DNA from: a virus
Length of the DNA stretch: 38,714 bases
Strand: one strand, 5' to 3'
Virus record (IMG/VR): IMGVR_UViG_3300030107_000879
Coordinates: 1-38,714 of that record
A program made the position numbers and the translations under genes. The notes under the pieces were generated by a model. The model was not told where the DNA came from, made no database searches, and saw nothing but the letters and a program-made list of their open reading frames with translations. Below, piece after piece: positions 7,634-20,229 of the stretch (its first letter is position 1; each line of letters opens with the position of its first letter).

Positions 7634-7639
7634 TCCTAC

Positions 7640-7660
7640 GGGGGCTTCGGCCCCCTTTTT
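7640..7660 (+). terminator. Rho-independent terminator after capsid gene
   Basis: A perfect GC stem (GGGGGC, TTCG tetraloop, GCCCCC at 7640-7655) is followed by five T. It lies seven bases after the major capsid stop codon. It should cap the head transcript or attenuate read-through into the next genes. Confidence 0.93.
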
Positions 7661-7673
7661 ATTCCTGACTAAT

Positions 7674-7689
7674 TGTTCCACATGGAACA
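7674..7689. promoter_or_regulatory. parS-like 16-bp palindrome
   Basis: The sequence TGTTCCACATGGAACA has perfect six-base arms around ACAT. It differs by one central base from TGTTCCACGTGGAACA, a form of the bacterial chromosome-partition site parS bound by ParB. It lies in the 84-base gap between the capsid terminator and the next gene. It could also be a protein-binding operator or simply a second RNA stem. ParB binding is not demonstrated, and the altered base is in the conserved centre. Confidence 0.45.
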
Positions 7690-7717
7690 TTAGACCCAGC
7701 CAAGACAGGAGACCCCC

Positions 7718-8227
7718 ATGGCTAATTCTACCTTTTCCGGTCCCGTTAGATCCGAAAGTACCTTCAAAACCATCAGCAAAAACTCCACCACTGGCACGAT
7801 TACCGAGGTCGCTACTATCGGTGATGGCCCCGTAAGCCTTGCGGATGGCAATGTCACGCTTACCAATGCCACCCACAGCGGCAGAATTCTTTTTGTCCCA
7901 GACGGCGGACAAGATAACACCTATACGTTGCCTGCGCCTATTGCGGGCTCTATGTTTAGGTTTGTCTATGCTGGCGGTGCGGCAGATGCCACTGATGCGC
8001 TTATTGTTACTCCGGGTAACACCAACTTCTATATCGGCGGTGTTACCTTATTGGATACAGATGGTGACGCAATCAGCAGTGTTTTTTCTAATGGAAGCTC
8101 AAACAGCAGTATTCAATTAAACGTGCCTGCTGGATTTGATGTAACCATCGTTGGCTTGAACACGACGAACTACCAAATCTTCGGAAATGTTACGAGCACA
8201 ACTGCGCCTGCATTTGCCGATCAATAA
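7718..8227 (+). CDS. Putative head fibre/decoration protein
   Basis: A 169-residue Thr/Ser/Gly-rich beta protein with very few charged residues, preceded by a good ribosome site (AGGAG at 7706-7710). It shows motifs common in virion surface proteins, such as GRILFVPDGGQDNTYTLP (near 55-72) and GSMFRFVYAGGA. A beta-sandwich or trimeric head-fibre role is plausible from composition and location just after the capsid gene. No conserved catalytic residue is seen. Flanking hairpins on both sides suggest separate control of its expression. Confidence 0.6.
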   Translation: MANSTFSGPVRSESTFKTISKNSTTGTITEVATIGDGPVSLADGNVTLTNATHSGRILFVPDGGQDNTYTLPAPIAGSMFRFVYAGGAADATDALIVTPGNTNFYIGGVTLLDTDGDAISSVFSNGSSNSSIQLNVPAGFDVTIVGLNTTNYQIFGNVTSTTAPAFADQ

Positions 8228-8234
8228 TCTTGTC

Positions 8235-8250
8235 GGGGGCTTCGGCCCCC
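8235..8250 (+). terminator. Second GGGGGC-TTCG-GCCCCC hairpin (weak terminator)
   Basis: The same 16-base stem-loop as at 7640-7655 recurs exactly here, but ATTATT follows instead of a T-run. The flanking AATAAT (8223-8228) and ATTATT (8251-8256) can pair as an outer stem across a six-base bulge. It is more likely an attenuator or mRNA 3'-end stabiliser than a full terminator. Confidence 0.6.
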
Positions 8251-8266
8251 ATTATTGGAGGCTGTT

Positions 8267-8674
8267 ATGGCTGATACAGTTACAAGCAAAACCATTGAGG
8301 ACGGTCCCCGCACAGCAATTATTGCGTTTACAAACGTAAGCGATGGGACTGGCGAGTCCGCTGTTAAGAAGGTGGACGTTTCTGCGCTTTCCTCAGACCC
8401 GATGGGTAAAGGCGCCTGCACTGGCGTCAACATAGAGTGCATCTGGTTCTCTACTGTCGGCATGGGCGTGAAGATTTTGTTTGATGCCAGCACCGACGTT
8501 CTGGCATGGGAAGTGCCTGCGGACTACGCAGATACTGCGGATTTTTCTGAGTTTGTTGGATTGGTAAATAACGCAGGCTCAGGCAAGACAGGCGATATCA
8601 ACTTTACAACTGTGGGTCATTCTTCTGGCGACTCCTACAGTATCGTTCTTAAGCTGAAGAAGAGCTACGGCTAA
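8267..8674 (+). CDS. Small virion-associated protein, unknown
   Basis: A 135-residue protein. ATG at 8267 is chosen because GGAGG (8257-8261) precedes it; an in-frame TTG at 8255 overlaps that ribosome site. The sequence is beta-rich, with motifs such as ECIWFSTVGMGVKILFDAS (48-66) and SGKTGDINFTTVGHSSGDSY near the C-terminus. It is likely a head or neck structural protein because it lies between head-surface genes and connector genes. The function is not recognised. Its stop overlaps the next start as TAATG. Confidence 0.65.
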   Translation: MADTVTSKTIEDGPRTAIIAFTNVSDGTGESAVKKVDVSALSSDPMGKGACTGVNIECIWFSTVGMGVKILFDASTDVLAWEVPADYADTADFSEFVGLVNNAGSGKTGDINFTTVGHSSGDSYSIVLKLKKSYG

Positions 8675-8889
8675 TGAGAGAGTATTACAAGAAAGGCGGT
8701 AAGACTAAGAAAAAGTCTAAGTCTCGCGTGAATGAGGCAGGTAATTATACAAAGCCCACCATGCGTAAGCGTCTGTTTAACAAGATAAAAGCTGGGGGAA
8801 AAGGTGGCAAGCCGGGGCAGTGGTCTGCCCGTAAAGCACAAATGCTTGCTCAACAGTACAAGAAAGCTGGCGGTGGGTATAAAGACTGA
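8674..8889 (+). CDS. Small basic protein with MR-x-YY-GGK start
   Basis: A 71-residue, strongly basic protein starting MREYYKKGGKTKKKS. The C-terminal half holds GKPGQWSARKAQMLAQQY, followed by KAGGGYKD; this resembles small basic proteins seen in many marine phages. It shares its first 15 residues' pattern with the protein at 9261-9530. It starts by TAATG overlap and ends by TGATG overlap, so it is tightly coupled to its neighbours. A nucleic-acid or capsid-interior binding role is suggested by charge alone. Confidence 0.75.
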   Translation: MREYYKKGGKTKKKSKSRVNEAGNYTKPTMRKRLFNKIKAGGKGGKPGQWSARKAQMLAQQYKKAGGGYKD

Positions 8890-9017
8890 TGGCAGAACTA
8901 ACTTTGGCGCAAAAGCGCAAGATGATTGCTGAGCTGAAGAAAGCGTCGAAAACGCACGCGGCCCAAGCGGCACGGCTCGAAAAGACGCTTCCCAAGAAAA
9001 AGAAGAATGGCTCTTAA
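8889..9017 (+). CDS. 42-aa basic coiled-coil peptide
   Basis: A very small gene found by reading the gap: ATG at 8889 overlaps the previous TGA by one base, and TAA ends at 9017, 11 bases inside the next gene. The peptide starts MAELTLAQKRKMIAELKKAS and ends in a KKKKNGS tail. It looks like a single amphipathic helix with a basic end. It fits the packing of the surrounding basic-gene cluster. The function is unknown. Confidence 0.65.
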   Translation: MAELTLAQKRKMIAELKKASKTHAAQAARLEKTLPKKKKNGS

Positions 9018-9261
9018 AAAATCGCAAAAGTCGCTTAAGAAGTGGACTAAGCAGAAGTGGCGCACAAAGTCTGGCAAGCCCAGCACTCAGGGCAAAAAAG
9101 CTACTGGCGAGCGTTATCTGCCCGAGAAGGCGATCAAGTCGCTGTCTGACAAGGAGTACGCGGCAACCAGTCGCAAAAAACGAGCCGATACCAAAAAGGG
9201 CAAGCAACACTCCAAGCAACCCAAAAAGGTGGCCAAGAAGACGGCGAGGCATCGAAAGTAA
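9007..9261 (+). CDS. Small basic Lys-rich phage protein
   Basis: An 84-residue protein with about one third Lys/Arg. A compact middle segment, ATGERYLPEKAIKSLSDKEY (about 32-51), is flanked by basic tails (SLKKWTKQKWRTKSGKPS and HSKQPKKVAKKTARHRK). I recognise this arrangement as a widespread but uncharacterised small phage protein. It overlaps the previous gene by 11 bases and the next by one (TAATG). DNA binding or condensation inside the head is possible from charge but not shown. Confidence 0.75.
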   Translation: MALKKSQKSLKKWTKQKWRTKSGKPSTQGKKATGERYLPEKAIKSLSDKEYAATSRKKRADTKKGKQHSKQPKKVAKKTARHRK

Positions 9262-9530
9262 TGCGTGCGTATTACAAGTCTGGCGGAAAGGTCAAGAAGA
9301 AGTCTATGGCTTGTAACAAGCCAAGGCGCACCCCCGGACACTCAAAGAAAAAGTTTGTGGTCAAGGCGTGTGAGGACGGCAAAGAGAAGCTGATCCGCTA
9401 TGGCGACAAAAACATGAAGATCAAAAAGAATCAGCCGGGAAGGCGAAAGTCGTTCCGTGCTAGGCACAAGTGTGACTCTAATCCACCAAGCAAGCTGTCG
9501 GCTCGCTATTGGTCGTGTAAGAACTGGTGA
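9261..9530 (+). CDS. Small basic Cys-containing phage protein
   Basis: An 89-residue basic protein starting MRAYYKSGGKVKKKS, close to the start of the 8674-8889 product. It continues with ACNKPRRTPGHSKKKFVVKAC and closes with a typical C-terminal block, RRKSFRARHKCDSNPPSKLS and ARYWSCKNW. Four cysteines (about 18, 35, 72, 86) could bind metal. The C-terminal RKSFRARH...YWSC pattern is common in phage genomes near head and neck genes, but its function is unknown to me. Confidence 0.75.
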   Translation: MRAYYKSGGKVKKKSMACNKPRRTPGHSKKKFVVKACEDGKEKLIRYGDKNMKIKKNQPGRRKSFRARHKCDSNPPSKLSARYWSCKNW

Positions 9531-9534
9531 TGAT

Positions 9535-9660
9535 ATGCCGATAAGCAGAGCGCAGATGGGCAAGCAGATCAAAAACGCGCCCAAGTCTAGGAAGATAAAG
9601 GCGGCTAAGTGTAGAAATGGCTTGGCTCGCAAGGGCAGGACAAGAGGAAGGAAGGTCTAA
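9535..9660 (+). CDS. 41-aa basic peptide (MPISRAQM)
   Basis: This short gene starts at ATG 9535, four bases after the previous stop; the longer open frame starting upstream at 9457 lies inside the previous gene and is rejected. The peptide MPISRAQMGKQIKNAPKSRK continues with an Arg/Lys-rich tail and one Cys. Its MPISRAQM start echoes MAISRAQM of the major capsid protein. The stop overlaps the next start (TAATG). The function is unknown. Confidence 0.65.
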   Translation: MPISRAQMGKQIKNAPKSRKIKAAKCRNGLARKGRTRGRKV

Positions 9661-10355
9661 TGGCCACGAGCGGAACAACTGGCTTTACTCTGGACTTGTC
9701 AGACGTTATCGAAGAAGCGTATGAGCGAGCTGGTCTGGAGCTGAGAAGCGGCTATGACTATAAAACAGCTCGACGTAGCCTAGACCTACTTATGTTGGAA
9801 TGGCAGAACAGGGGGTTGAACCTTTGGACTGTTAGAGACGCGACAGTTTCTCTTGTTGCCGGGACGGCGTCATACACTCTTGGCGTTGACAAGTTAGACA
9901 TTATTGAGGGATTGCTTCGCACAGACGCTGGGGATACATCAAAGCAGTCTGATCTAACCATGCAGAGAATCTCTGTTAGTCAGTATGCACATCAAACAAA
10001 CAAGCTAACACAGGGTAGGCCGTTACAGTACTACGTTGAGCGCAAGCCAACCGGCATAACACTTCACTTCTGGCCTGTCCCTGATGCCACAACGAGCTAC
10101 ACCTTTGCTTATTACTATATGGACAGGATTGAGGATAGCGGTAGGCCGGCATCAAACAATATGGACGTTCCGGCAAGGTTTTTGCCGTGCTTGGTTGCTG
10201 GGCTTGCCTATCAGGTCGCGAGCAAAAGGCCCGAGGCATTGCAGTTGGCGCCGGCACTCAAGCAGGTTTACGAAGAGCAGTGGAATCTAGCGTCTGATGC
10301 GGCAAGAGAAAAGGCCGCTCTGTATGTTGCGCCCGGAGGCTACAGCAATATATGA
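9660..10355 (+). CDS. Head-tail adaptor / connector protein (P22 gp4-like)
   Basis: A 231-residue protein with an N-terminal helical bundle (DVIEEAYERAGLELRSGYDYKTARRSLDLL, about 14-43) and the motif LEWQNRGLNLWTVRDATVSL. A beta domain and a C-terminal helical segment with LAYQVASKRPE follow. This arrangement is typical of head-completion/tail-adaptor proteins that bind under the portal in P22- and T7-like phages. The gene lies in the connector block before two further small neck genes. Family assignment is from pattern and synteny, not alignment. Confidence 0.7.
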   Translation: MATSGTTGFTLDLSDVIEEAYERAGLELRSGYDYKTARRSLDLLMLEWQNRGLNLWTVRDATVSLVAGTASYTLGVDKLDIIEGLLRTDAGDTSKQSDLTMQRISVSQYAHQTNKLTQGRPLQYYVERKPTGITLHFWPVPDATTSYTFAYYYMDRIEDSGRPASNNMDVPARFLPCLVAGLAYQVASKRPEALQLAPALKQVYEEQWNLASDAAREKAALYVAPGGYSNI

Positions 10356-10696
10356 GTAGTTATGCCAAGGGTAAAAAAGCATTTGGCTTTTGCGACAGAA
10401 CTGGATTTAGGTATCCGCTGAGAGACCTTGTTCGCCAGATAGAAGACGGTAGATGGAATGGTCTGTTGGTGGGTCGTGATGTTGTTGATCAAGATCAGCC
10501 TCAGCTAAAGCTCGGTGATGTTAACGCAAGCGACCCACAGGCGCTCAGGTTTCCAAGGCCAGACGATAGCCTAGACGAAAGCCGTGCGCTTTCTGCCTTT
10601 GATCCTGTTGGCGGGGGAAATACTGCCTTGGGTAGCCGCACCGTCGGTCTGGACATGGCTGGGGAAGTGGGCCGTGTGACGGTGGAGATATCTTAA
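10352..10696 (+). CDS. Small neck-region protein with CDRTGFRYPL motif
   Basis: A 114-residue protein overlapping the adaptor gene by four bases. Its N-terminal motif, FCDRTGFRYPLRDLVRQIEDGR (13-34 approximately), followed by GLLVGRDVVDQDQPQL, resembles a small phage protein often found near connectors. Only one Cys remains, so a zinc knuckle seems unlikely. The C-terminal part is low-complexity. It probably contributes to the neck or to adaptor assembly; the function is otherwise unknown. The stop overlaps the next start (TAATG). Confidence 0.68.
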   Translation: MSSYAKGKKAFGFCDRTGFRYPLRDLVRQIEDGRWNGLLVGRDVVDQDQPQLKLGDVNASDPQALRFPRPDDSLDESRALSAFDPVGGGNTALGSRTVGLDMAGEVGRVTVEIS

Positions 10697-11337
10697 TGGC
10701 GTTCACCTTTACCACTCTGAAGCAGGCTATACAGGACTACACAGAGTCAAATGAGACAACATTCGTCAATAACCTGACGACAATCATAAAACAAGCCGAA
10801 GACAGAATACTGAAGCGGTGTCAGCTCCCTGATTTCAGGAAGAATGTTACTGCTAACATGTCGTCAGCAAACCAGTATCTGGCGATGCCGACTGACTTCT
10901 TGACGCCATACTCGCTTGCGATAGACAACTCGGGATACGACTACCTTATATTCAAAGATGTAAACTTTGTTAGGCAGGCATATCCGTCCTCGTCGACAAC
11001 TGGCATACCTAAGTATTACGCAATATTCAGCGATACCTATTTTTTGATTGGCCCGACGCCAAATGCGAATTTTGCAGTGGAGCTACACTACTTCCACAAG
11101 CCAGAGTCTATTACAGCGGCGTCCTCGGGAACCAGTTGGCTTGGCACTAACGCGGAGTCAACCCTGCTGTATGGTTGTCTTCTGGAGGCATACACATTCC
11201 TGAAAGGCGATGCCGACCTAATGCAGTTGTACGCACAAAGGTATGAAGAGGCTGTTTCTCGTCTGGAGGAGCTGGGTGAAGGTTACAACACAACCGACAG
11301 CTACCGTAGTGGTGCCGTAAGGAAACCTAGAACGTAA
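10696..11337 (+). CDS. Neck/adaptor protein (head completion type)
   Basis: A 213-residue protein with an N-terminal helical region (TLKQAIQDYTESNETTFVNN) and QAEDRILKRCQLPDFRK. A central beta segment follows with the motif YLAMPTDFLTPYSLAI and a strand PKYYAIFSDTYFLIGPTP. The C-terminal helices include ESTLLYGCLLEAYTFLKGD and YAQRYEEAVSRLEELGEG. This build is common to phage adaptor proteins that sit between portal and tail. It begins and ends with one-base TAATG-type overlaps, indicating one operon with its neighbours. The exact subfamily is not certain. Confidence 0.72.
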   Translation: MAFTFTTLKQAIQDYTESNETTFVNNLTTIIKQAEDRILKRCQLPDFRKNVTANMSSANQYLAMPTDFLTPYSLAIDNSGYDYLIFKDVNFVRQAYPSSSTTGIPKYYAIFSDTYFLIGPTPNANFAVELHYFHKPESITAASSGTSWLGTNAESTLLYGCLLEAYTFLKGDADLMQLYAQRYEEAVSRLEELGEGYNTTDSYRSGAVRKPRT

Positions 11338-11615
11338 TGCTTGAGCTTGAGGTGGGGAGTGTTGCAGTTCAAACAACAAGCAACCGAGGGTTTACTCCGG
11401 AGGAGGTTGCTGAGCGATGCCTAGACCGCATTATAAATGTGTCGTCTTCCGCGCCACAGGCACTAAAGGATCAGGCGCTTGCATATCGCGACGACATTCG
11501 CGCTGTTTTGCTGTTTTACATGCGTGAAGCCATAAACAGTGATCGCACTACTATTTACAACGCTCTGGTAGAAGCAGGGCAAAAAGACCTAGCCGAGGCT
11601 ATCAGGAGGCTCTGA
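11337..11615 (+). CDS. Small helical phage protein, unknown
   Basis: A 92-residue helical protein. FTPEEVAERCLDRIINVSS (about 19-37) and the C-terminal TTIYNALVEAGQKDLAEAIR look conserved in character, as in small genes of related marine phages. It has no membrane segment or catalytic motif. It directly continues the neck operon (TAATG start overlap) and ends one base before the next ATG. Its role is unknown. Confidence 0.7.
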   Translation: MLELEVGSVAVQTTSNRGFTPEEVAERCLDRIINVSSSAPQALKDQALAYRDDIRAVLLFYMREAINSDRTTIYNALVEAGQKDLAEAIRRL

Positions 11616-12050
11616 ATGGCGTTTAGTGGAAACTTTATGTGTACCTCGTTCAAGAAGGAATTGCTTGAGGGCGTACACAATTTCAAGAACTCTGGTGGAA
11701 GCACGTTCAAACTGGCCATGTATACCAACAGTGCCTCTTTTACTGCGGCGACAACTGCATACACCACATCGAATGAGGTTAGCGGGACTGGATACACTGC
11801 TGGCGGAGCATCCTTGACTAGAGTAGATCCAACAACGTCCAGCACTACGGCGTTTACGGACTTTTCTGACTTAACATTTAGCACGGCGACTGTGACCGCT
11901 CGGGGAGCGTTGATATACAACGACAGCGCATCAGGAGATCCAACTGTTGTTGTGCTGGACTTTGGCGCAGATAAGACATCTACAGCCGGAGATTTTACGA
12001 TTGTGTTTCCCACGGCTGATGCGAGTAACGCGATTATTCGGATAGCGTAA
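11616..12050 (+). CDS. Putative virion structural protein (beta-rich)
   Basis: A 144-residue Thr/Ser-rich beta protein. The N-terminal segment SFKKELLEGVHNFKNSGGS (11-29) and FKLAMYTNSASFTAATTAYT match the style of small structural proteins found beside tail-fibre genes. GGAGG lies within the end of the previous gene (11604-11608), eight bases before the ATG. The function may be a tail or neck accessory. The stop overlaps the next start (TAATG). Confidence 0.65.
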   Translation: MAFSGNFMCTSFKKELLEGVHNFKNSGGSTFKLAMYTNSASFTAATTAYTTSNEVSGTGYTAGGASLTRVDPTTSSTTAFTDFSDLTFSTATVTARGALIYNDSASGDPTVVVLDFGADKTSTAGDFTIVFPTADASNAIIRIA

Positions 12051-12817
12051 TGGCTGATGTCATTGTCCCCCTCACTGGGTGGGGGCGAGATGGCTGGGGC
12101 GCCCTCGGCTGGAATGAGGGTAGTGTCACCAACTCAGGAGCTACAGGTGGCGTAGGATCTGTTTCGGTCCCTGCCGACGCAAGCGTATCTGTTACAGGGC
12201 TTTCCGCTACAGGCTCGGTTGGTTCCGCAACGGTTACAGCAGGGGCCAGTGTAAGCGTCACGGGACTCTCTGCAACTGGCTCTGTGGGCTCGGTCACTGT
12301 TGTTGCTGAGGCTAACGTAAGTGTTACGGGGCTTGCGGCAACAGGTTCTGTGGGGTCGGTAACAACCACCGCAGATTCAAACACAAGTGTTACAGGGCTT
12401 GCGGCAACCGGATCGGTTGGCTCAGTCACTACGACAGCGGGCGCAAGTGTTTCTGCAACAGGTTTTGCGGCAACGGGCGCTGTCGGCTCCGTTACGATTC
12501 AGACTGTTAACAATGTAGACGTTACGGGCGTTTCGGCTACCGGAGGTGTTGGGTCTGTTACCACCGTGGCTCAAGCGGGCGTGTCCGTAGAGGGCGTGTC
12601 TGGCTCGGGCGAGGTTGGTTCTGCACTGGTCTGGGGTGTAATTGTTCCAGATCAAACACCAAATTATGTAGAGATTGAGCCCTCTCAGTCTGCGGGCAAT
12701 TCAGAAATAAGTCCTTCTCAGTCAGCAGGGTACTCGACAATAAGTCCGTCGCAGTCACCCGGATGGACAGAGGTGGCTCCGTCACAAACGCCAAACTATG
12801 AAGATATTGCGGCATAA
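12050..12817 (+). CDS. Repeat-built tail/fibre-associated protein
   Basis: A 255-residue protein made almost entirely of repeats. After a Trp-rich head (GWGRDGWGALGWNEG, 10-24) and one 20-residue degenerate unit, residues 45-198 hold seven 22-residue units of the form VSVTGLxATGSVGSVTxxA. Residues 200-254 then hold five 11-residue units of the form PSQSxGxxxIx. Hydrophobic/Gly alternation suggests a stacked beta structure such as a fibre shaft. It sits between small structural genes and the tail fibre, so it may be a fibre or fibre-attachment protein. The function is inferred. Confidence 0.7.
   Translation: MADVIVPLTGWGRDGWGALGWNEGSVTNSGATGGVGSVSVPADASVSVTGLSATGSVGSATVTAGASVSVTGLSATGSVGSVTVVAEANVSVTGLAATGSVGSVTTTADSNTSVTGLAATGSVGSVTTTAGASVSATGFAATGAVGSVTIQTVNNVDVTGVSATGGVGSVTTVAQAGVSVEGVSGSGEVGSALVWGVIVPDQTPNYVEIEPSQSAGNSEISPSQSAGYSTISPSQSPGWTEVAPSQTPNYEDIAA
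12182..12643 (+). repeat. Seven 66-bp coding tandem repeats
   Basis: Seven in-frame units of 66 bases encode the 22-residue repeat VSVTGLxATGSVGSVT-type. The units differ mainly at third codon positions, so the protein pattern is kept while the DNA has drifted. The array is contiguous and has no spacers. Confidence 0.85.
12647..12811 (+). repeat. Five 33-bp coding tandem repeats
   Basis: Five in-frame 33-base units encode 11-residue repeats of the type PSQSAGxSxIS / PSQTPNYxxI at the protein's C-terminus. The outer two units keep TPNY, the inner ones SAG or SPG. Confidence 0.8.
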
Positions 12818-12829
12818 GAGGATTGGTTA

Positions 12830-14794
12830 ATGGCCAGCACTTATACAACTAACCTTGGTATTGAGAAGATTGGAACTGGCGAGCAGTCAGGGACATGGGG
12901 CGATACCACCAACACTAACTTTGACATCTTAGATGAGGCGGTTAATGGAATTATTTCAATCACGCTTTCGTCTGCGGGAAGCTCTGGATCTCCTACAGCC
13001 CTGCCCATAACGGATGGTGCCTCATCTAATGGTAGAAACAAGTTTATTGAGTTTGTGGATGGCGGAGATTTGGGCGGCACGGCGTATGTGCAACTCACGC
13101 CAAATAACGCGGAGAAAATTGTTCACATCCGCAACAGCCTGTCTAGTAGCCGGTCAGTTATTGTCTTTCAGGGCACTTACAACGCATCCAATGACTTTGA
13201 GATTGTAAACGGCGCAGATGTTCTGCTGAAGTTTAATGGCGGTGGATCAGGGGCCACAGTCACAGACGTTAATGTTGACTTGACAGTGACAGGCGCAACT
13301 ATTGCCACTGCTGACATCAACGGTGGAGCTATTGACGGCACCGTTATCGGGGGTGCTTCTGCCGCCGCAATCACTGCCACAACCATTACTGGCACCACTA
13401 TAACCGCCAGCACGGCGGTAGTCCCGGATGCTAGCGATGGCGCAACATTAGGATCAACCTCTTTGGAGTGGTCTGATCTGTACCTTGCAGACGGTGCCGT
13501 TGTGTTTTTTGGCGATGATCAAGACATCACGCTGACGCACGTTGCAGATACGGGTCTGACACTTAAACACGCCAATACCGGGGACGACAAGTTTCCCACG
13601 TTCTTGTTAGCCACCGGCGATACAGATATTGCCGCAGATGACAAGCTGGGTGTAATTAACTTTCAGGCTCCCGATGAGGGCGCAGGCACAGACGCAATAC
13701 TGGTTGCCGCGGGCATAGAAGCTGTATCTGAGGGTGATTTTAGCGCCTCTAGCAATGCTACTTCGCTTGTATTTAAAACAGGCGCAAGTGAAGCCGCCGC
13801 TGAAAAAATGCGCGTTAATAGTGCGGGTAGCGTGGGGATTGGTACGGCGAGCCCTTCAAGTACCGGATCAACCTATGGATCATTGACATTAAACGGCTCT
13901 GCTGGTGGAGAGGTTTTTGTAGCAACTGGCGGTACAACTAAAGGTACTTTATTTAATTACTCATCAGATGCAAACAATGTGGGCCTTGCGGCAACAGACT
14001 CATCTGGAGATTTGTTGTTTAGCACGGGCGGCTTTAATGAGCGTATGCGTATTAATAGCTCTGGCGACATCTCAATTGGCTCATCTTCAAACCATGCTGG
14101 CGCAAGAGTTGTTATTAACGACACCCCGCCAACAGCCTTTGGCAGTCCGATGTTTCAAGTCGGTCAAGAGACATTCACGGGTAGCGGGATGTACTCTATT
14201 GGTTTTGGGTACACGGCTGGAAGTTACACAGAGCCGCCCGTAGAGATTGCCGCGATCACAACATCAGATTCTGGCGGCACAAAAGCCGACATTGTTTTTG
14301 GTACTAGAAATGTAACAACAAACACGGCTGTAACAGAAAGAATGAGAATTGCCGCAAGTGGTGCAGTATCTGTAACTGGTGCGTTTTCTAAAGGTTCTGG
14401 ATCATTTAAGATTGATCATCCATTAGATGCCAAAAAAGATACGCACCATTTAGTTCATTCTTTTATAGAAGGGCCACAAGCAGACTTAATTTACCGAGGT
14501 AAAGTTGATCTTGTTGATGGATCTGCAACCGTAAATTTAGATACTGTTGCAACAATGTCTGCTGGTACTTTTGTTTCGCTTAACACTAATGTTCAGTGTT
14601 TTACTAGCAACGAGTCTGGATGGACTGCTGTAAAAGGTTCTGTTGCTGGCAATGTACTAACAATTACTGCGCAGGCGTCTTGCACAGATACTGTGTCTTG
14701 GATGGTAGTTGGTGAACGTTGTGATAAACACATGCTTGACACAGAGTGGACAGACGATAACGGTAAAGTAATTGTTGAGCCTTTAAAGTCATAA
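12830..14794 (+). CDS. Tail fibre / receptor-binding protein
   Basis: A 654-residue protein. The N-terminus (YTTNLGIEKIGTGEQSGTWG, then NFDILDEAVNG, 4-38) is a typical virion-attachment region of marine phage fibres. The body is Thr/Gly/Ala-rich beta sequence with fibre-type motifs such as AAEKMRVNSAGSVGIGTASP (about 324-343) and ERMRINSSGDISIG (about 404-417). The last 140 residues, beginning GSGSFKIDHPLDAKKD, form a distinct tip ending TEWTDDNGKVIVEPLKS. From about 13900 onward, and most clearly 14390-14790, the DNA is AT-richer than its surroundings, suggesting a tip acquired from another phage. Two stop codons in tandem (TAA TGA) end it, and the next ORF is in the same frame. Confidence 0.85.
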   Translation: MASTYTTNLGIEKIGTGEQSGTWGDTTNTNFDILDEAVNGIISITLSSAGSSGSPTALPITDGASSNGRNKFIEFVDGGDLGGTAYVQLTPNNAEKIVHIRNSLSSSRSVIVFQGTYNASNDFEIVNGADVLLKFNGGGSGATVTDVNVDLTVTGATIATADINGGAIDGTVIGGASAAAITATTITGTTITASTAVVPDASDGATLGSTSLEWSDLYLADGAVVFFGDDQDITLTHVADTGLTLKHANTGDDKFPTFLLATGDTDIAADDKLGVINFQAPDEGAGTDAILVAAGIEAVSEGDFSASSNATSLVFKTGASEAAAEKMRVNSAGSVGIGTASPSSTGSTYGSLTLNGSAGGEVFVATGGTTKGTLFNYSSDANNVGLAATDSSGDLLFSTGGFNERMRINSSGDISIGSSSNHAGARVVINDTPPTAFGSPMFQVGQETFTGSGMYSIGFGYTAGSYTEPPVEIAAITTSDSGGTKADIVFGTRNVTTNTAVTERMRIAASGAVSVTGAFSKGSGSFKIDHPLDAKKDTHHLVHSFIEGPQADLIYRGKVDLVDGSATVNLDTVATMSAGTFVSLNTNVQCFTSNESGWTAVKGSVAGNVLTITAQASCTDTVSWMVVGERCDKHMLDTEWTDDNGKVIVEPLKS

Positions 14795-14797
14795 TGA

Positions 14798-15085
14798 ATG
14801 GATCCTTTATCTTTAATTGCCATGGCGTCGACCACCTTCAAAGGTATACAGACGCTAGTAAACAGAGGTGCAGAGATTGAGCATGCTTTCGATTGGAAGG
14901 CAGACGGGACTCATCAAAAGTACGGCGTGATCGCACAAGAGCTGATTGAAGTGGCACCGGAAGCGGTTAGCGTAGGGGATGATGATGACAAAACTATGGC
15001 TGTCGATCATGCCAAACTTGTCCCTATGATGATTAAGGAAATACAAGATTTGAAGGCCGAAGTAGCGGCACTAAAAGGAGCATAA
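14798..15085 (+). CDS. Chimeric ORF: membrane-protein N-terminus fused to S74 chaperone tail
   Basis: A 95-residue ORF made of two unrelated pieces. Residues 1-29 match the first 29 residues of the 15549-16019 product at 26 positions (DNA about 82% identical over 88 bases). Residues 30-95 (FDWKADGTHQKYGVIAQELI, then DHAKLVPMMIKEIQDLKAEVAALKG) are the C-terminal half of a Peptidase S74 intramolecular chaperone, normally found at the end of a tail spike or fibre. The S74 autocleavage site and first helices (SDxRxK type) are absent here and in the fibre upstream. It may be a recombination remnant, or a small trans-acting folding factor. No clear ribosome site is seen. Confidence 0.65.
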   Translation: MDPLSLIAMASTTFKGIQTLVNRGAEIEHAFDWKADGTHQKYGVIAQELIEVAPEAVSVGDDDDKTMAVDHAKLVPMMIKEIQDLKAEVAALKGA

Positions 15086-15088
15086 ACC

Positions 15089-15409
15089 ATGGCACATGCA
15101 TGGACTGTAGGCGGAATGGACTACGATGTTTCGTCAGGCGGCAAAACTAACGTAGTGACTACCGTACACTGGCGCTGTTCAAAAACTGATGGCGATCACA
15201 GCGGATCATCTTATGGGTCTGTAGGGCTTGCGGCTCCGAGCGGGTCTTTTGTTGAGTGGGCTGATATTACAGAAGCAACTGCCGTTGGTTGGGCTAAAGC
15301 GGCTTTAGGCGCAGATGAAGTGACCGGCATCGAAGCCGGCGTTGACGCACAAATTGCAGAAGAGGCTAACCCCACGACAGGCGAAGGCGTTCCGTGGTCG
15401 TCAAGCTAG
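15089..15409 (+). CDS. Small phage protein near fibre genes, unknown
   Basis: A 106-residue protein preceded by AAAAGGAG (15073-15080). It contains WTVGGMDYDVSSGGKTNVVT and VHWRCSKTDGDHSGSSYGSVG, then an acidic C-terminal helix region with IEAGVDAQIAEEANP. I recognise the type as a common small protein downstream of phage tail fibres, with unknown function. Its end overlaps the next small gene by 16 bases. Confidence 0.7.
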   Translation: MAHAWTVGGMDYDVSSGGKTNVVTTVHWRCSKTDGDHSGSSYGSVGLAAPSGSFVEWADITEATAVGWAKAALGADEVTGIEAGVDAQIAEEANPTTGEGVPWSSS

Positions 15410-15549
15410 AGCTTAGTGTAGAGGAAGTTAACTCAGTGCTACAGGTTTTAGGCGAAATGCCCACTAAATCCGGCGCATGGCCACTGGTTGTTAAGATCAA
15501 AGAGCAGGCTGAAAGTCAGGTCGAGCCAGAAGCAGAAAGCAATGACTAA
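15394..15549 (+). CDS. 51-aa helical phage protein
   Basis: A short gene found by reading the gap. GTG at 15394 is preceded by GAAGG (15383-15387, six-base spacing), and TAA ends at 15549 overlapping the next ATG. The peptide reads MVVKLELSVEEVNSVLQVLG, then a segment with SGAWPLVVKIKEQAESQV and an acidic tail. This pattern (two helices around a Trp-Pro turn) is one I associate with small genes of unknown role in many phages. The double overlap supports its being real. Confidence 0.7.
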   Translation: MVVKLELSVEEVNSVLQVLGEMPTKSGAWPLVVKIKEQAESQVEPEAESND

Positions 15550-16019
15550 TGGACCCGTTATCCATGATCGCGATGGCGTCTACCACGTTCAAGGGCATCA
15601 AGACGCTGGTAGACAGAGGCGCAGAGATTGAGCATGTAGCGCAGAAGCTCGGGGCTTGGTATGGCTATGCGGCTGATATCAAGCAAATCGAAAAAGAAGC
15701 GGAAAGTCCCGGTATATTTAAGAAACTGTTTGATGGGAATACCGTTGAACAGCAGGCGCTTAATAGCGTCATTGCAAAGAAAAAGCTAGAAGAGCAAGAG
15801 AAGCAAATCAGAGAGCTGATCGTTTGGGCGTATGGCGTCGAAACTTATCAGGAGATGATCATGCTTCGCAGAAAAATTAAGGCTCAACGCGAGCAAGCCA
15901 TATACAAGCAAAGGCGAAGACGCCGGATGTTTGTCGACGGGGCTCTTTTGCTTGTCGGTTTGGCGGTGGGGGCTAGTATAATTTACGGGACGGTAATATT
16001 TATACGGGGAGCATCATGA
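15549..16019 (+). CDS. Membrane protein of the lysis/envelope cassette
   Basis: A 156-residue protein. The N-terminus (MDPLSMIAMASTTFKGIKTL) is followed by an amphipathic helical region to about 120. A run of five Arg (122-126) comes next, then one hydrophobic segment at 128-152 (GALLLVGLAVGASIIYGTVI). The basic run before the membrane segment suggests that the long N-terminal part stays in the cytoplasm. It opens the block that ends with holin and endolysin, so a role in lysis timing or envelope remodelling is likely but unproven. Its first 29 codons recur in the chimeric ORF at 14798. Confidence 0.72.
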   Translation: MDPLSMIAMASTTFKGIKTLVDRGAEIEHVAQKLGAWYGYAADIKQIEKEAESPGIFKKLFDGNTVEQQALNSVIAKKKLEEQEKQIRELIVWAYGVETYQEMIMLRRKIKAQREQAIYKQRRRRRMFVDGALLLVGLAVGASIIYGTVIFIRGAS

Positions 16020-16459
16020 AAAGACTGTTTATCTTGCTGGGCTTTGTGTCTGCGTCTGTCATGGCGAAGACAGTTATTCTGTATGACGACGGTACACAGT
16101 ACACCGTGGAGAATAACGAGAAAGTGTACGTCAGTGATTACTCTCAGCTATACCACTTCAAGCAGTGGGGTGACGGCGACATAGATTTGAGAAAGGTGTC
16201 GCCAAGCGTCAAGCGTGATCATGTGTACCAAGAACCGAGTGGCGAGGGCGAGTTAGGCAGTCCGCAGTGGTGTGAGACGTATGTTCCTTGGTCAGAAGGA
16301 CTGAACTTCAACATGACCGCGTGGCAGAAAGTTTGCGATGTCAATGACGATGGCATTTACGATATGTGTGACTATTACGAGCCTACCGGCATCCAGACGT
16401 TTGAAGAAATCGAATGGCAGGACAGGTGCAACGACGGTGATCCTTGGGATGGCTCGTAA
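16016..16459 (+). CDS. Sec-secreted protein with four Cys and Ca-loop-like motif
   Basis: A 147-residue protein with a clear signal peptide (MKRLFILLGFVSASVMA, cleavage after A17) and a good GGAG ribosome site. The mature part is acidic and aromatic, with four Cys (86, 107, 118, 138) that could form disulfides in the periplasm. The segment D108-V-N-D-D-G-I-Y-D-M-C-D119 resembles an EF-hand calcium loop. No enzyme motif is seen. The position in the lysis cassette suggests a periplasmic or outer-envelope job such as lysis assistance or superinfection blocking. It lacks a lipobox, so it is not an outer spanin of the usual kind. Confidence 0.75.
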   Translation: MKRLFILLGFVSASVMAKTVILYDDGTQYTVENNEKVYVSDYSQLYHFKQWGDGDIDLRKVSPSVKRDHVYQEPSGEGELGSPQWCETYVPWSEGLNFNMTAWQKVCDVNDDGIYDMCDYYEPTGIQTFEEIEWQDRCNDGDPWDGS

Positions 16460-16628
16460 AAGTCTTAGGGTGAAGGTTGCACGCGGAATTACTCAGACTC
16501 GGCGTGATGTCAGGAGTGTAGTGGCTCGCATAAAGGGCCGTATCTGGACTCTTCAGACTGACCTTAGATTGCGCCTGAAAAAGGCCAAAAAGGCTCTCCG
16601 TAAGGCGTGGAGTAAGTTCTGGAAGTGA
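16449..16628 (+). CDS. 59-aa cationic amphipathic peptide
   Basis: The gene starts at ATG 16449, overlapping the secreted-protein gene by 11 bases; a longer open frame reaching back to 16338 is a shadow of that gene. The peptide has 21 Lys/Arg and only two acidic residues. It has an Arg-rich first half (RGITQTRRDVRSVVARIKGR) and a C-terminal helix ending KKALRKAWSKFWK. Such composition is like cationic membrane-active peptides. It lies in the lysis cassette, where a disruptin-like outer-membrane agent is conceivable; a nucleic-acid-binding peptide is the alternative. Confidence 0.65.
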   Translation: MARKSLRVKVARGITQTRRDVRSVVARIKGRIWTLQTDLRLRLKKAKKALRKAWSKFWK

Positions 16629-16891
16629 ACGAGCAAAGATTAGAGCGAATTGAAAGTAAGCTCGACAAGGTGTCCTATTCAGTAGCTGACTTTGCCCGGA
16701 TAGAGGAAAGACTGCTTTCGGCGTTCAAGCGACTAGAGCGCCATGAAAAGCAGATTGACCGGCATGCTGATGACATCAAAACACTGACCAGTAGTGTGCT
16801 AACTAACTCCAGAACGCTTCAGTTTGGGGAGCGGGTATTCTGGATTGTAGTCACGGCAGGCGTCTCGCTTGCAGTGTACTTGAGGGGCTAA
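16625..16891 (+). CDS. Coiled-coil protein with C-terminal membrane anchor
   Basis: An 88-residue protein starting with GTG that overlaps the previous TGA (GTGA). Residues 3-60 form a long heptad coiled coil (RLERIESKLDKVSYSVADFA, then RLERHEKQIDRHADDIKTL). A single membrane segment lies at about 70-86 (VFWIVVTAGVSLAVYL). This arrangement is common for small proteins next to phage holins and may be an accessory holin, antiholin or spanin-like part. There is no direct evidence for which. Confidence 0.72.
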   Translation: MNEQRLERIESKLDKVSYSVADFARIEERLLSAFKRLERHEKQIDRHADDIKTLTSSVLTNSRTLQFGERVFWIVVTAGVSLAVYLRG

Positions 16892-16894
16892 GCT

Positions 16895-17296
16895 ATGTTG
16901 CAGGCGTTGATTGGGCCGGTCACGGGGTTGTTGGACAAATTTATTCCAGATGCAGATGAAAAGGCGAGGTTGGCGCATGAAATTGCAACCATGTCCGAAC
17001 GACACGCACAGGAGCTTGCCAAGGGCCAGTTGGAAATCAACAAGGCCGAAGCGGCGCATAAGTCACTGTTTGTCGCAGGGTGGAGGCCATTTGTTGGGTG
17101 GACTTGTGGTGTTGCTCTGGCTTGGCACTTTGTTGGCCAGCCTCTCGTTGTTTTTGGGATTGCAGTGGCTGGTGTTGACACCCCTGAATTACCTGTATTT
17201 GAGATGGAAAGCCTACTCACAGTTCTTCTCGGAATGCTCGGTCTTGGTGGTTTACGAACCCTTGAAAAAACCAAAAACATAGCTCGAGAAAAATGA
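16895..17296 (+). CDS. Holin of the 3-TM (GTA holin-like) family
   Basis: A 133-residue protein. An amphipathic N-terminus with coiled coil (about 20-55) is followed by AAHKSLFVAGWRPFVGWTCG (53-72), LAWHFVGQPLVVFGIAVAG (75-93) and a final hydrophobic segment, LLTVLLGMLGLGGLRTLEKT (107-126). The GWRPFVGWxCG and GMLGLGGLRTxEKTK motifs are those of the Holin_3TMs family. It would form inner-membrane lesions that release the endolysin to the cell wall. The next gene overlaps its end by four bases (ATGA). Confidence 0.88.
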   Translation: MLQALIGPVTGLLDKFIPDADEKARLAHEIATMSERHAQELAKGQLEINKAEAAHKSLFVAGWRPFVGWTCGVALAWHFVGQPLVVFGIAVAGVDTPELPVFEMESLLTVLLGMLGLGGLRTLEKTKNIAREK

Positions 17297-17493
17297 CACC
17301 AGAGACATTTGATAAGTGGCGCGTCGTACCAAGAGTGCTGGTTCTGATGATGGCATGGGCAACGTGGGACGTAATTCACTGGTTTACAACTTTGTCAGAC
17401 CCCACTTTTGAGCAGGCCGGTTTGGTTTCCGTGTGTACGGGCGCCATGACGGCTGTTTTTGGGCTGTTTTTGGGGCAGGGCAAGAAGGAGTGA
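17293..17493 (+). CDS. Two-TM small protein beside holin
   Basis: A 66-residue protein with two membrane segments (about 12-31, VPRVLVLMMAWATWDVIHWF, and 42-61, GLVSVCTGAMTAVFGLFLG), a short acidic loop between them and a basic tail (GKKE). It overlaps the holin gene by four bases and the endolysin by four. It is probably a second holin or an antiholin; the sequence does not decide between them. Confidence 0.72.
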   Translation: MTPETFDKWRVVPRVLVLMMAWATWDVIHWFTTLSDPTFEQAGLVSVCTGAMTAVFGLFLGQGKKE

Positions 17494-17843
17494 GCTACTT
17501 CTCAGAGGACGAGCTGAAGTGTCAACACTGCGGCAAGTACAAGTTTGATGAGGGTGTGCTCAAGATTCTGAATGCAATTCGCAGAGAGTTTGGCCCCATG
17601 CCTGTTAACAGCGGTTATCGCTGTGCTGATCACCCGATAGAGGCAAAAAAACAACAGCCGGGAGCGCATTGCACAGGTAAGGCTGTTGATATTGGTGTCA
17701 GCAGGGGCGATGCCTACAAGCTGATAGAGGTTGCACTGGCTCATGGGTGCCCAAGAATAGGTGTTAATCAGAAGGGTGAGGGGCGTTTTGTGCATTTGGA
17801 TTGGGATTATGATCGGCCATACCCAACTGTTTGGTCGTATTAG
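17490..17843 (+). CDS. Endolysin, M15-type peptidase
   Basis: A 117-residue enzyme predicted to cut peptide cross-links of peptidoglycan. It begins SYFSEDELKCQHCGKYKFDE, with PVNSGYRCADHP at 38-49. The zinc-site residues of the M15 fold are visible: H60 in GAHCTGKAVDI, D67 in the same motif and H102 in FVHLDWD. GTG at 17490 is taken as the start, overlapping the previous TGA. The AAGGAG there touches the start codon, so translation probably depends on coupling. An upstream in-frame GTG at 17433 would add residues read from inside the previous gene. It lacks a signal peptide, fitting holin-dependent release. Confidence 0.9.
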   Translation: MSYFSEDELKCQHCGKYKFDEGVLKILNAIRREFGPMPVNSGYRCADHPIEAKKQQPGAHCTGKAVDIGVSRGDAYKLIEVALAHGCPRIGVNQKGEGRFVHLDWDYDRPYPTVWSY

Positions 17844-17855
17844 CGAGGTGTAACC

Positions 17856-19709
17856 GTGCCGCTGTCGAAGATTGCATTTGCCCCCGGCATAAACAAGGAA
17901 GGCACCCAGTACACCGCCGATTCTGGCTGGTTTGATTCTGACAAGATACGCTTTCGCAAAGGTCGTGTTGAGAAGATTGGTGGCTGGCAGAAGTACATAG
18001 CAGGCACAATCAAGGGCGTGGCCCGTTCGTTAATGGACTGGGGCACAAAGGATGGTCAGACATTTCTAGGTATCGGCACAAACCTAAAGTTCTACATTGA
18101 GTCAGGTAAGTCGCTAAACGACGTGACGCCGATCAGAGCTACGACAACTAACGCCGCGACTTTTGCGGCCACAAACGGCTCCTCATCAATCACCGTAACA
18201 GACAGCTCTCATGGCGCTACGGCAGGTGACTTTGTAACTTACTCTGGGGCGGCTACGCTCGGCGGAAATATTACTGCGGCGGTGCTTAATCAGGAGTATC
18301 AGGTGGTTGTTGTCCTTACAGCTAACACCTACACCATAGCGGCAGTGGACACCAGCGGAGCCGCCGTGACCGCAAACTCCAGTGACACAGGAAATGGCGG
18401 CGGATCTGTAACGGCGGCATATCAGCTCACTACAGGGCTGAACAGCTATGTATCGTCAACTGGATGGGGTGTGGGCGCATGGAACGCAGGCGCGTGGGGT
18501 TCTGTGACATCGATAACACTGGCAAATCAACTTAGGCTGTTTAGTCAGGACGCTTTCGGTGACGATTTAATCTTCAACCCTCGGACAGGTAGTGTCTTTT
18601 TTTGGGACAAGTCATCAGGTCTTTCCACTAGAGCGGTTGATATCAGCACCTTGAGCGGGGCAAGCAATACGCCGACAGCCGCGCTTCAGGTAATGGTTTC
18701 GGACATAGATCGCCATGTCATTTGTTTTGGCGCAAATCCTATTGGGGGATCAGATTTAGATCCGCTTTTAGTTCGCTGGTCTGATCAGGAGAATGTTGCA
18801 GACTGGACGCCGACGGCTACAAACAGTGCCGGTGGTCAGGTTCTGTCTGTTGGCACTCAGATCATAGGCGCACTGAAGACAAGACAGGAAATAATCATAA
18901 GCACCGACAATGGGCTTACGTCGATGCGGTTTGTTGGGGCGCCGTTTGTTTTTTCATTCACCCCAGTGGCAGAGCACGTTCGATTCGCATCTCCTAATGC
19001 CGCTGTCGTGGCGGCTGACACCCTGTACTTTATGGACCCCGGCGGCTTCTACGTTTACAGGGGCGCGGTGCAGAGACTGCCATGCTCTGTTCACAGGTAT
19101 GTTTTTGACAACCTTAATTATGATCAGATATACAAGGTATTTGCGACGACAAATGCCGATTACTCTGAGGTAACGTGGTATTACCCTATTGGATCTAACA
19201 GCTCAGACATCACTAACTATGTGTCATACAACTACTTGGAGCAGGTGTGGGCTGTGGGCACCTTGAGCCGTGGCGCATACATACCGACAGCGACACAACA
19301 GTACCCGATTGCGGCGACAAATGATGTCGATAACCCGCTCACCAACTACCTGTACAACCATGAGATTGGCTACGACGGAGACGGCGCAGAGATAACCGCC
19401 TTTGTTGAGTCTGGCGACCTTGGCGTTGGTGACGGTGAGGCTTTTATGATGGTCAATCGGATTATCCCCGACTTTACATTTACGGGCGACAAGACCGAGG
19501 CAAGCCTAGAAATAAAGCTGAAGGGCAGAAACTTCCCGCTTGAGGATGCGTCTGACTTGTCAACAGCAACAGTGACCAGCTCAACAACGCAATCTCACGT
19601 CAGGGCCAGAGCCCGAGAGCAGATCGTCAGGATAGAGTCTAGTGGTCAGGGATACGGGTGGTCTCTGGGTGATCTTCGTTTGGGCATTAGGACGGATGGG
19701 AGGCGATAG
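17856..19709 (+). CDS. Tail nozzle-like protein (P22 gp10 / T7 gp12 type)
   Basis: A 617-residue protein with a GTG start after a GAGGTG ribosome site. The N-terminus (LSKIAFAPGINKEGTQYTAD, then SGWFDSDKIRFRKGRVEKIG, 3-42) is typical of podovirus tail-tube/nozzle or DNA-stabilising proteins. The body looks like a large beta-propeller with repeated strands such as WSDQENVADWTPTATNSAGG and LYFMDPGGFYVYRGAVQRLP. Around residues 100-190 there is a Ser/Thr/Gly-rich insertion that may be an extra Ig-like or beta domain. It should cap the short tail and keep DNA in the head until infection. The exact relative is not confirmed. Confidence 0.78.
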   Translation: MPLSKIAFAPGINKEGTQYTADSGWFDSDKIRFRKGRVEKIGGWQKYIAGTIKGVARSLMDWGTKDGQTFLGIGTNLKFYIESGKSLNDVTPIRATTTNAATFAATNGSSSITVTDSSHGATAGDFVTYSGAATLGGNITAAVLNQEYQVVVVLTANTYTIAAVDTSGAAVTANSSDTGNGGGSVTAAYQLTTGLNSYVSSTGWGVGAWNAGAWGSVTSITLANQLRLFSQDAFGDDLIFNPRTGSVFFWDKSSGLSTRAVDISTLSGASNTPTAALQVMVSDIDRHVICFGANPIGGSDLDPLLVRWSDQENVADWTPTATNSAGGQVLSVGTQIIGALKTRQEIIISTDNGLTSMRFVGAPFVFSFTPVAEHVRFASPNAAVVAADTLYFMDPGGFYVYRGAVQRLPCSVHRYVFDNLNYDQIYKVFATTNADYSEVTWYYPIGSNSSDITNYVSYNYLEQVWAVGTLSRGAYIPTATQQYPIAATNDVDNPLTNYLYNHEIGYDGDGAEITAFVESGDLGVGDGEAFMMVNRIIPDFTFTGDKTEASLEIKLKGRNFPLEDASDLSTATVTSSTTQSHVRARAREQIVRIESSGQGYGWSLGDLRLGIRTDGRR

Positions 19710-19712
19710 CAA

Positions 19713-19907
19713 ATGGCATCCAGACCCTTACCTGTAGCGACAGCACAATACGATGCAGAAAACGAGCAGATATCCAGACGAACGATAGAAAACTCGTTTC
19801 AGGACTTAGAGGCTAAGGTTGATGGCAATACCACCAAGACGAGCAAAACGTCGTCTCTGGCGCTTCGCCGGTTCCAGTTTTTGCTGATGGGAGCCTCTAG
19901 TGGCTGA
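19713..19907 (+). CDS. Small helical virion-region protein
   Basis: A 64-residue protein with a GGAGG ribosome site at 19699-19703. It contains PLPVATAQYDAENEQISRRT and IENSFQDLEAKVDGN, then a C-terminal LRRFQFLLMGASSG. This pattern recurs in small genes after the tail nozzle gene in marine phages. The function is unknown; a short coiled-coil assembly peptide is possible. The end overlaps the next gene by eight bases. Confidence 0.68.
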   Translation: MASRPLPVATAQYDAENEQISRRTIENSFQDLEAKVDGNTTKTSKTSSLALRRFQFLLMGASSG

Positions 19908-20229
19908 TGCGATAAAGGTTCTTGGTCAAGCAGATGTCAGCGCGACGACCACAACCACGCTGTATTCAGTACCAGATCTAACGCAAACAACTTGTAGCTC
20001 ACTTGTTATATGTAACAGGGGCGGATCTGGCATCACGTTCCGCGTGAGCATTCATGTAGACAATGCCAGCGCAGACGACAAGCAGTTTATTTTTTTCGAT
20101 GAAGACTTAGCGGCCACCACGTCGAGAACAGTGGTGATTGGCCTGTGTTTGGGTCAAAAGGACGTGGTCAAGGTCTATGCAAGTGCGGCTAATGTCAGCT
20201 TCAACTTATTTGGTGTAGAGACAAGCTAA
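19900..20229 (+). CDS. Small beta-rich structural candidate
   Basis: A 109-residue protein starting at GTG inside the previous gene's end. It is beta-rich and has VLGQADVSATTTTTLYSVPD (7-26), a SSLVICNRGGSGITFRVSI strand pair and a C-terminal strand, KVYASAANVSFNLFGVE. It resembles small virion surface or fibre-base proteins in composition. The stop overlaps the next start (TAATG). The function is not recognised. Confidence 0.65.
   Translation: MADAIKVLGQADVSATTTTTLYSVPDLTQTTCSSLVICNRGGSGITFRVSIHVDNASADDKQFIFFDEDLAATTSRTVVIGLCLGQKDVVKVYASAANVSFNLFGVETS

Follow-up and report, generated by a model that had tools for sequence, protein, structure and literature searches.

The tail-fibre gene of the window, the whole 38,714-nucleotide stretch of marine phage DNA analysed here (IMG/VR record IMGVR_UViG_3300030107_000879), appears to have exchanged its 3′ end recently. 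It is proposed, with a probability of about 0.82, that a phage whose fibre ended in Peptidase_S74 (S74) acquired about 560 bases of fibre end like that of a second phage, D, that a self-cleaving chaperone thereby gave way to a permanent cap, and that the scrap of S74 left behind is a scar. From the sequences, we read the event as the exchange of one C-terminal end module, the autoproteolytic S74, for another.

Two viral records frame the comparison. R (IMGVR_UViG_3300030106_004523; 54,236 bases; loci L083 and L162) is close kin of the window, and D (IMGVR_UViG_3300030102_004910; 33,253 bases; locus L003) is a donor-type relative. The collected loci comprise the best 80 of 394 for the tip and the best 80 of 542 for the shaft, and some contigs are present as two pieces (e.g. 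L083/L162, L002/L082, L166/L129 and L093/L167). The portal protein is 100% identical between the window and R over 813 aa, and the window portal has no match in D, a record that is possibly incomplete. A separate observation concerns the 2562-aa protein encoded at 27268–34956, which shares 30–39% identity with its R counterpart in two matched stretches, against 100% for the portals.

Architecture of the fibre region

The features of the fibre gene and its downstream neighbourhood are as follows.

12830–14794, plus strand: tail-fibre gene, an open reading frame (ORF) of 654 aa, with an N-terminal attachment region and shaft shared with S74-ended fibres
13859–14059, plus strand: first replaced shaft patch; no alignment between the window and R from 13858 to 14060
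14060–14325, plus strand: retained R-type shaft module (97.1% identical to R over 14060–14337)
14326–14885, plus strand: imported D-type segment, comprising the fibre tip and 29 codons from the start of the gene that follows it in D
14378–14791, plus strand: C-terminal tip domain, delimited by the conservation boundary, the AlphaFold2 monomer and fold matches
about 14450–14749, plus strand: predicted β-sandwich core of the tip, from the model
14798–15085, plus strand: chimeric 95-aa ORF, 29 D-type MDPLS codons and the last 65 S74 codons, in frame
14885/14886, no strand: right joint, D-type DNA up to 14885 and S74-type DNA from 14886
15089–15409, plus strand: DUF7936 gene of the recipient background (Pfam PF25590, E 1.3e-29; 92% to R)
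15549–16019, plus strand: the recipient's own complete MDPLS gene (99.4% to R), a homologue of the stub at 14798

Sequence features were also noted in two further proteins of the window. Just before the fibre gene, a 255-aa protein (12050–12817) contains repeats of about 22 residues resembling TGLSATGSVGSVTV, as well as a run of PSQS repeats. A 1201-aa protein (20229–23834) contains an EF-hand-like stretch at residues ~689–721 (PF00036, E 2.6e-10).

The fibre gene as a mosaic

The N-terminal part of the window fibre is of R type. Residues 1–109 match phrog_31104 (E 7.6e-18), and the first 150 aa are 99.3% identical to those of the 752-aa R fibre, which ends in a complete Peptidase_S74 (Pfam positions 1–58 of 58) and retains SDQRLK, the SDxxxK motif. 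A complete S74 end is absent from the window fibre, which has no Pfam match at E 0.1. Its last 120 aa are instead 98.3% identical to those of the 786-aa D fibre, the first 150 aa of which have no match to the first 150 aa of the window fibre. The original prediction had proposed a search for the tip on phages with different shafts, and D is such a phage; the pairing of this shaft with this tip is not common to the relatives, since the R shaft ends in S74.

The DNA alignments place the edges of the exchange. The window and R are 97% identical over 6836–13858 and 14060–14337, and ~90% identical from 14886 onward; between these blocks R carries a different shaft and its complete S74. Over 14326–14885 (560 bases) the window is 97.1% identical to D, with exact agreement over 14326–14472, 451 of 460 bases matching over 14338–14797, 81 of 88 over 14798–14885, and agreement ending at 14885. 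The retained shaft module is only 62–86% identical to D in bins of ~50 bases. At the left crossover, which lies in DNA homologous in the window, R and D (14311–14337), R-type sequence extends to 14325 and D-type sequence begins at 14326. The source of the 13859–14059 patch was not found among the collected loci, where full-length matches are limited to the window's own record and the contig that shares its joint.

Comparison across the collected loci points to an import rather than to inheritance. Complete fibres that match the window fibre at 90% identity or more in their first 150 aa fall into three classes by their end: S74 in five contigs (96.7–99.3% over those residues), an end other than S74 or the tip, on fibres of 413 aa, in three (92–95%), and the tip, which occurs only in the window and the sister contig with the same joint. 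No other tip-bearer was found among the complete fibres collected with an N-terminus down to 80% identity to the window's. The same tip on an unrelated N-terminus, together with near-identical N-termini bearing other ends, bears out the original suggestion of a recent tip exchange, and import of the tip from a phage of different ancestry is strongly supported by these comparisons. Vertical descent of the tip is rejected, because R keeps S74, relatives of the N-terminus bear other ends and D shares the tip. Other pairs of loci show the same combination; for example, L004 and L006 have ends that are 98.3% identical and N-termini that are 34% identical, and L017 and L030 have ends that are 94.7% identical and N-termini without a match. 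The 413-aa fibres (L169, L170 and L176) are a third kind of fibre end.

Identity to close kin is uneven beyond the fibre gene. Over 8888–20426 the window matches L083 at 98–100% in many stretches, with patches down to 76–91%, and low-identity patches relative to R include one near 11250 and much of 16500–19000. The patchy identity between the window and R reads as the pattern of repeated recombination in one population.

Each of three breakpoints between R and the window lies within ~30 bases of a copy of E(R/K)MR(I/V) (13802, 14039 and 14336). Among viral ORFs longer than 150 aa, 62 of 96 with S74 and 38 of 83 with the tip contain a linker motif of this kind, [ED][RK][MV]R[IV], against 12 of 753 other ORFs longer than 300 aa. 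Yet only 15 (by a stricter pattern) or 20 (by a looser one) of the best 80 of 394 tip loci carry a linker in the 45 aa that precede the tip. The fall of breakpoints at linker copies is a post hoc coincidence and only suggestive.

Conservation and distribution of the tip domain

The proposal that the fibre end is a distinct domain beginning GSGSFKIDHPLD is upheld by a sharp boundary in column entropy. In an alignment of 49 viral sequences including the window, mean entropy is 3.1 bits over residues 1–20 of the aligned stretch and 0.64 bits over residues 24–158, a conservation that is overstated, as the tip loci are the best 80 of 394. In all 80 of these loci the tip is C-terminal, the reading frame closing no more than 173 codons after the match begins. 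Among 55 complete proteins, the tip sits on 16 N-terminal groups defined by single linkage, which groups the window type with D in a cluster of 29 members despite the lack of a direct N-terminal match between them.

Scans against Pfam (to E 0.1) and NCBIfam (to 0.01) gave no match for the tip, and a literature search for the motif KIDHPL found no paper on the domain. Among viral contigs 394 relatives were confirmed, and a further 342 in genomes of bacteria and archaea; the matches listed for the latter include 79 distinct loci, 32–59% identical, and bacterial genomes of many phyla. Eleven phage records match the tip. Ten are cyanophages or a marine virus at 57–65% identity, including phages of Prochlorococcus and Synechococcus and repeat records of P-SSM2 and S-TIM5, and the eleventh is a Rhizobium phage at 32% identity. 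The tip is a common end domain without a Pfam or NCBIfam match, and its carriers include contigs of marine phages, cyanophages and proteins of bacteria.

Collagen repeats were detected in two of five bacterial tip carriers scanned against Pfam (L276 and L263). In both, the tip relative ends a long collagen-repeat protein, which suggests that these proteins may be cell-surface fibres.

Predicted fold and function of the tip

AlphaFold2 models the tip monomer as a β-sandwich (pLDDT 86.2, pTM 0.72). Among viral models the best fold matches are tip relatives, including a P-SSM2 fibre-like protein at 64% identity. Structure comparison by VIA yielded the ends of the Pam1 tailspike (Z 9.3; 69 residues, 2.1 Å) and Sf6 tailspike (Z 8.2), the K64-1 depolymerase (Z 8.0), the Klebsiella K1 lyase (Z 7.5), the R2 pyocin fibre end (Z 7.1) and the AP22 fibre end (Z 5.7); Z scores of 7–8 are common by chance, and all of these but Pam1 lie near the tool's stated chance range. 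With Foldseek, Pam1 scored E 8.0e-4 and no other solved structure fell under 0.001. The ten best fold matches cover 67–80 of 160 residues, spanning model residues 47–135 at most.

These matches are strengthened by the recurrent C-terminal position of the matched domains on phage fibres and spikes. The predicted core of the tip resembles the end domains of Pam1, Sf6 and R-pyocin fibres. Like the Pam1, Sf6, K1 lyase, R-pyocin and AP22 ends, it combines this core fold with a C-terminal position; it differs from them in sequence, with 10–25% identity in matched stretches, and in its conserved N-terminal stretch SKGSGSFKIDHP, which precedes the part covered by the structure matches. The fold suggests a putative role in receptor binding. 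A match of the tip profile to human CD276 in solved structures (E 4.8e-6) is composed of two stretches of ~0.5 each, and this likeness (window ~14430–14580, profile positions 41–88) is probably due to chance.

Two readings of the tip's function are given equal weight, each tenable at somewhat below even odds. The first, put forward in the original prediction, is that the acquired end serves as a host-specific receptor-binding domain and that its exchange changed host range. It draws on the likeness of the fold to terminal domains that have a part in receptor recognition, among them the foot of the R-pyocin fibre, which binds strains by subtype (PMC6363177), and on the frequent recombination of fibre ends (PMC10684548). 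The strong conservation of the tip (0.64 bits in the biased best 80 of 394) casts doubt on a narrow host-specificity end, and relatives at 57–65% identity in ten cyanophage or marine virus records, some of them repeats of one phage, and in bacteria of many phyla likewise weigh somewhat against it.

The second reading holds that the tip is a generic folding or trimerisation cap that replaces S74, with specificity residing elsewhere and host range unchanged. The same conservation speaks for it, as do the C-terminal position in 80 of the best 80 of 394 loci, the 16 N-terminal groups and the Bdellovibrio fibres, in which a β-sandwich end stands in for the S74 chaperone (PMC10769870). It is countered by the receptor binding of similar pyocin folds and by the loss, in the same swap, of the R-type shaft preceding S74, which was possibly a receptor binder.

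The right joint and the chimeric ORF

The right joint lies inside the neighbouring gene, so the ORF at 14798–15085 is composed of the stub of D's next gene and the back half of S74. It starts 3 bases past the fibre stop codon, and in D a complete 156-aa MDPLS gene likewise starts 3 bases past the stop codon of the tip gene. The chimeric ORF matches Pfam PF13884 at positions 28–57 of 58 (E 1.5e-6); its S74 part starts at FDW, position 61 of 126 in our own S74 profile, and the first half of S74, including the SDxxxK catalytic motif, is missing. The S74 remnant beside the fibre gene, which had been linked to a tip exchange from the outset, fits as a scar at the joint. R and D are relatives of the parents and not the parents themselves: identity is only 92% between the stub and D, and 83% over 195 bases between the scrap and R.

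At the joint, no base is common to D and R that could count as microhomology, and inspection by eye of the sequence preceding FDW in 19 more S74 loci revealed no clear overlap. The arrangement of neighbouring genes distinguishes the two backgrounds. An MDPLS match lies within 200 nt of 5 of 181 tip ORFs in the collected loci: D has the complete gene and the other four are copies of the window's joint and stub. Behind S74, an MDPLS gene lies within 1,500 nt in 36 of 109 ORFs (32 of 105 without the window type), at a spacing of 324–467 nt in 35 of the 36 cases and 3 nt in the other. The S74 scrap preserves the recipient spacing, lying 467 nt from the window's own MDPLS gene, which is 82% identical to the stub over 89 bases. 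A right crossover through this downstream homologue is rejected, because the own copy is retained intact at 99.4% identity to R and S74 resumes at 14886. Distant homologues of the MDPLS family (26–33%) occur in six Roseobacter phage records and one Limnohabitans phage record.

The 95-aa ORF is most likely a scar, because the first half of S74 is missing. Its intact, in-frame state nevertheless makes a function possible, and it might be a working trans-acting chaperone derived from the S74 remnant. Such a role appears improbable. It accords with the position of the ORF 3 bases past the fibre stop, with the existence of separate chaperones that resemble intramolecular chaperone domains (PMC10579305) and with the divergence of the S74 tails between the window and R (dN 0.116, dS 0.573). 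That ratio, however, probably mostly predates the swap, the catalytic half of S74 is gone, and in D the tip gene has no S74 next to it and no such adjacent partner.

An assembly artefact fusing two phages is less credible still. These are metagenomic contigs and the joint is present in two records only, in a search that may miss records very near the window. The 30-base joint nevertheless recurs in one other contig of the viral collection, IMGVR_UViG_3300020436_000215, which shares 99.918% identity with the window across 12,244 bases (possibly from the same sample), and the fusion is in frame.

Base composition of the fibre end

The base composition of the fibre end agrees with an import. Over 14327–14791 (155 codons), third-position GC (GC3) is 0.232 (z −5.5). 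Overlapping segments of that size from the other genes, 5,986 in all, average 0.548 (sd 0.058), and none falls below 0.374. Within the fibre gene, a single change in GC3 is best placed at 14291, with a fall from 0.46 to 0.23 (equalled in 0 of 2,000 permutations), and the eight lowest of 470 overlapping 135-codon segments of the genome all lie inside 14045–14764. Composition is accordingly not uniform, and the AT-rich third positions noted at the fibre end are confirmed. The AT-rich span had, however, been drawn as 13900–14794; its end part stands and its unity does not, as two replaced patches are separated by ordinary shaft. The first patch (13859–14059) is mildly AT-rich (GC3 0.328; 59 of 8,207 segments as low), and the stretch between the patches is not unusual (GC3 0.432; 563 of 7,552 as low).

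A tip GC3 of 0.233 fits D, with a shaft GC3 of 0.302 and a locus GC of 0.434, and is at odds with the overall GC of the window, 0.517. Subtracting the GC3 of the rest of the gene from that of the tip gives +0.013 on average (sd 0.062) among 74 tip-bearing viral loci with enough flanking sequence, in which tip GC3 also correlates with the GC of its locus (r = 0.76). The only locus with a difference under −0.2 is L002, which carries the window's joint. Since the tip on average matches the rest of its gene across these loci, the mismatch in the window is not a property of the domain, and the import is recent. Selection on the domain as the source of its AT-richness can be dismissed: tip GC3 does average 0.26 over the 74 loci, yet the rest of the same genes averages 0.25, tip GC3 tracks locus GC, and the DNA comparison with R and D, which is independent of composition, contradicts it as well.

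Proposed course of the exchange

In the preferred reading, exchange of an S74 end for a D-like cap, the ancestral fibre would have ended in a Peptidase_S74 chaperone, as in R. Recombination would then have swapped this end for ~560 bases donated by a phage of separate ancestry that resembled D, with the right joint cutting S74 in half, removing the SDxxxK motif and leaving the fused 95-aa ORF. In R-type fibres, the S74 end would assemble the trimer and then cut itself off, as S74 domains are known to do. In the new fibre, this transient, self-cleaving chaperone would be replaced by a permanent trimeric β-sandwich cap, and the S74 scrap would be a functionless scar. By analogy with tailspike and R-pyocin ends, the cap would close the fibre, probably aids trimerisation and may bind a surface sugar. 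The end of the window fibre is thus most likely a permanent trimeric cap that possibly binds sugar. Against this reading, R and D are only relatives of the parents, only two records carry the joint, the trimer, cap and sugar roles rest on a monomer model, and S74 is not the sole alternative end, given three near-identical N-termini on 413-aa fibres.

Relation to known fibre-end exchanges

Exchange of fibre ends is already known; this case stands out by its recency, its placed edges and the stub of the donor gene. A close parallel is found in the Bdellovibrio MAT (mosaic adhesive trimeric) fibres, in which S74 and non-S74 ends occur on a common fibre type and self-cleavage of S74 after trimer assembly is described for Bd3182 (PMC10769870). 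There, as here, a shared N-terminus bears exchanged ends, with a β-sandwich in the place of S74. The Bdellovibrio fibres, however, form a bacterial paralogue family, whereas the window holds a phage gene with a recent, mapped exchange, and homology of the end domains is not implied. At E 0.01 the window fibre does not match the MAT N-terminal domain NF053851; of four bacterial tip carriers scanned, L250 and L276 match it, with scores under the curated cut-off. For comparison with Bd2133, the listed fold matches of the tip contain no Bdellovibrio entry, an absence that carries no weight.

The distantly related Alteromonas phages A5, V22 and P24 have exchanged host-recognition modules, so that fibre modules are likewise common to distant marine phages, and their chaperones are proposed to act as transient caps (PMC10579305). 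In those phages a fibre and a separate chaperone are shared together, whereas here only the terminal ~155 residues were transferred, with loss of the chaperone end. By the account of a survey of receptor-binding proteins, recent mosaicism across distinct families or lifestyles is confined to these proteins, and near-identical domains likewise occur on unrelated proteins across phage groups (PMC10684548). The survey is profile-based, whereas the present work maps the two edges of a single exchange and identifies a stub of the donor gene. Similarly, C-terminal modules are swapped in T4-like fibritins, an exchange reported to be ancient and to have ceased (PMC3797505), unlike the recent one in the window.

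The window and its close relatives form a natural before-and-after pair with two different fibre end modules, and the donor-gene stub is proof of direction. This pair makes the one-step swap of a self-cleaving chaperone for a permanent cap, and its effect on binding, directly testable. More broadly, and tentatively, the FKIDHPL domain may be a mobile, general end cap for trimeric fibres of phages and bacteria that is interchangeable with the self-cleaving S74 chaperone. If so, a single exchange would turn a chaperone-dependent, self-processing fibre into a permanently capped one.
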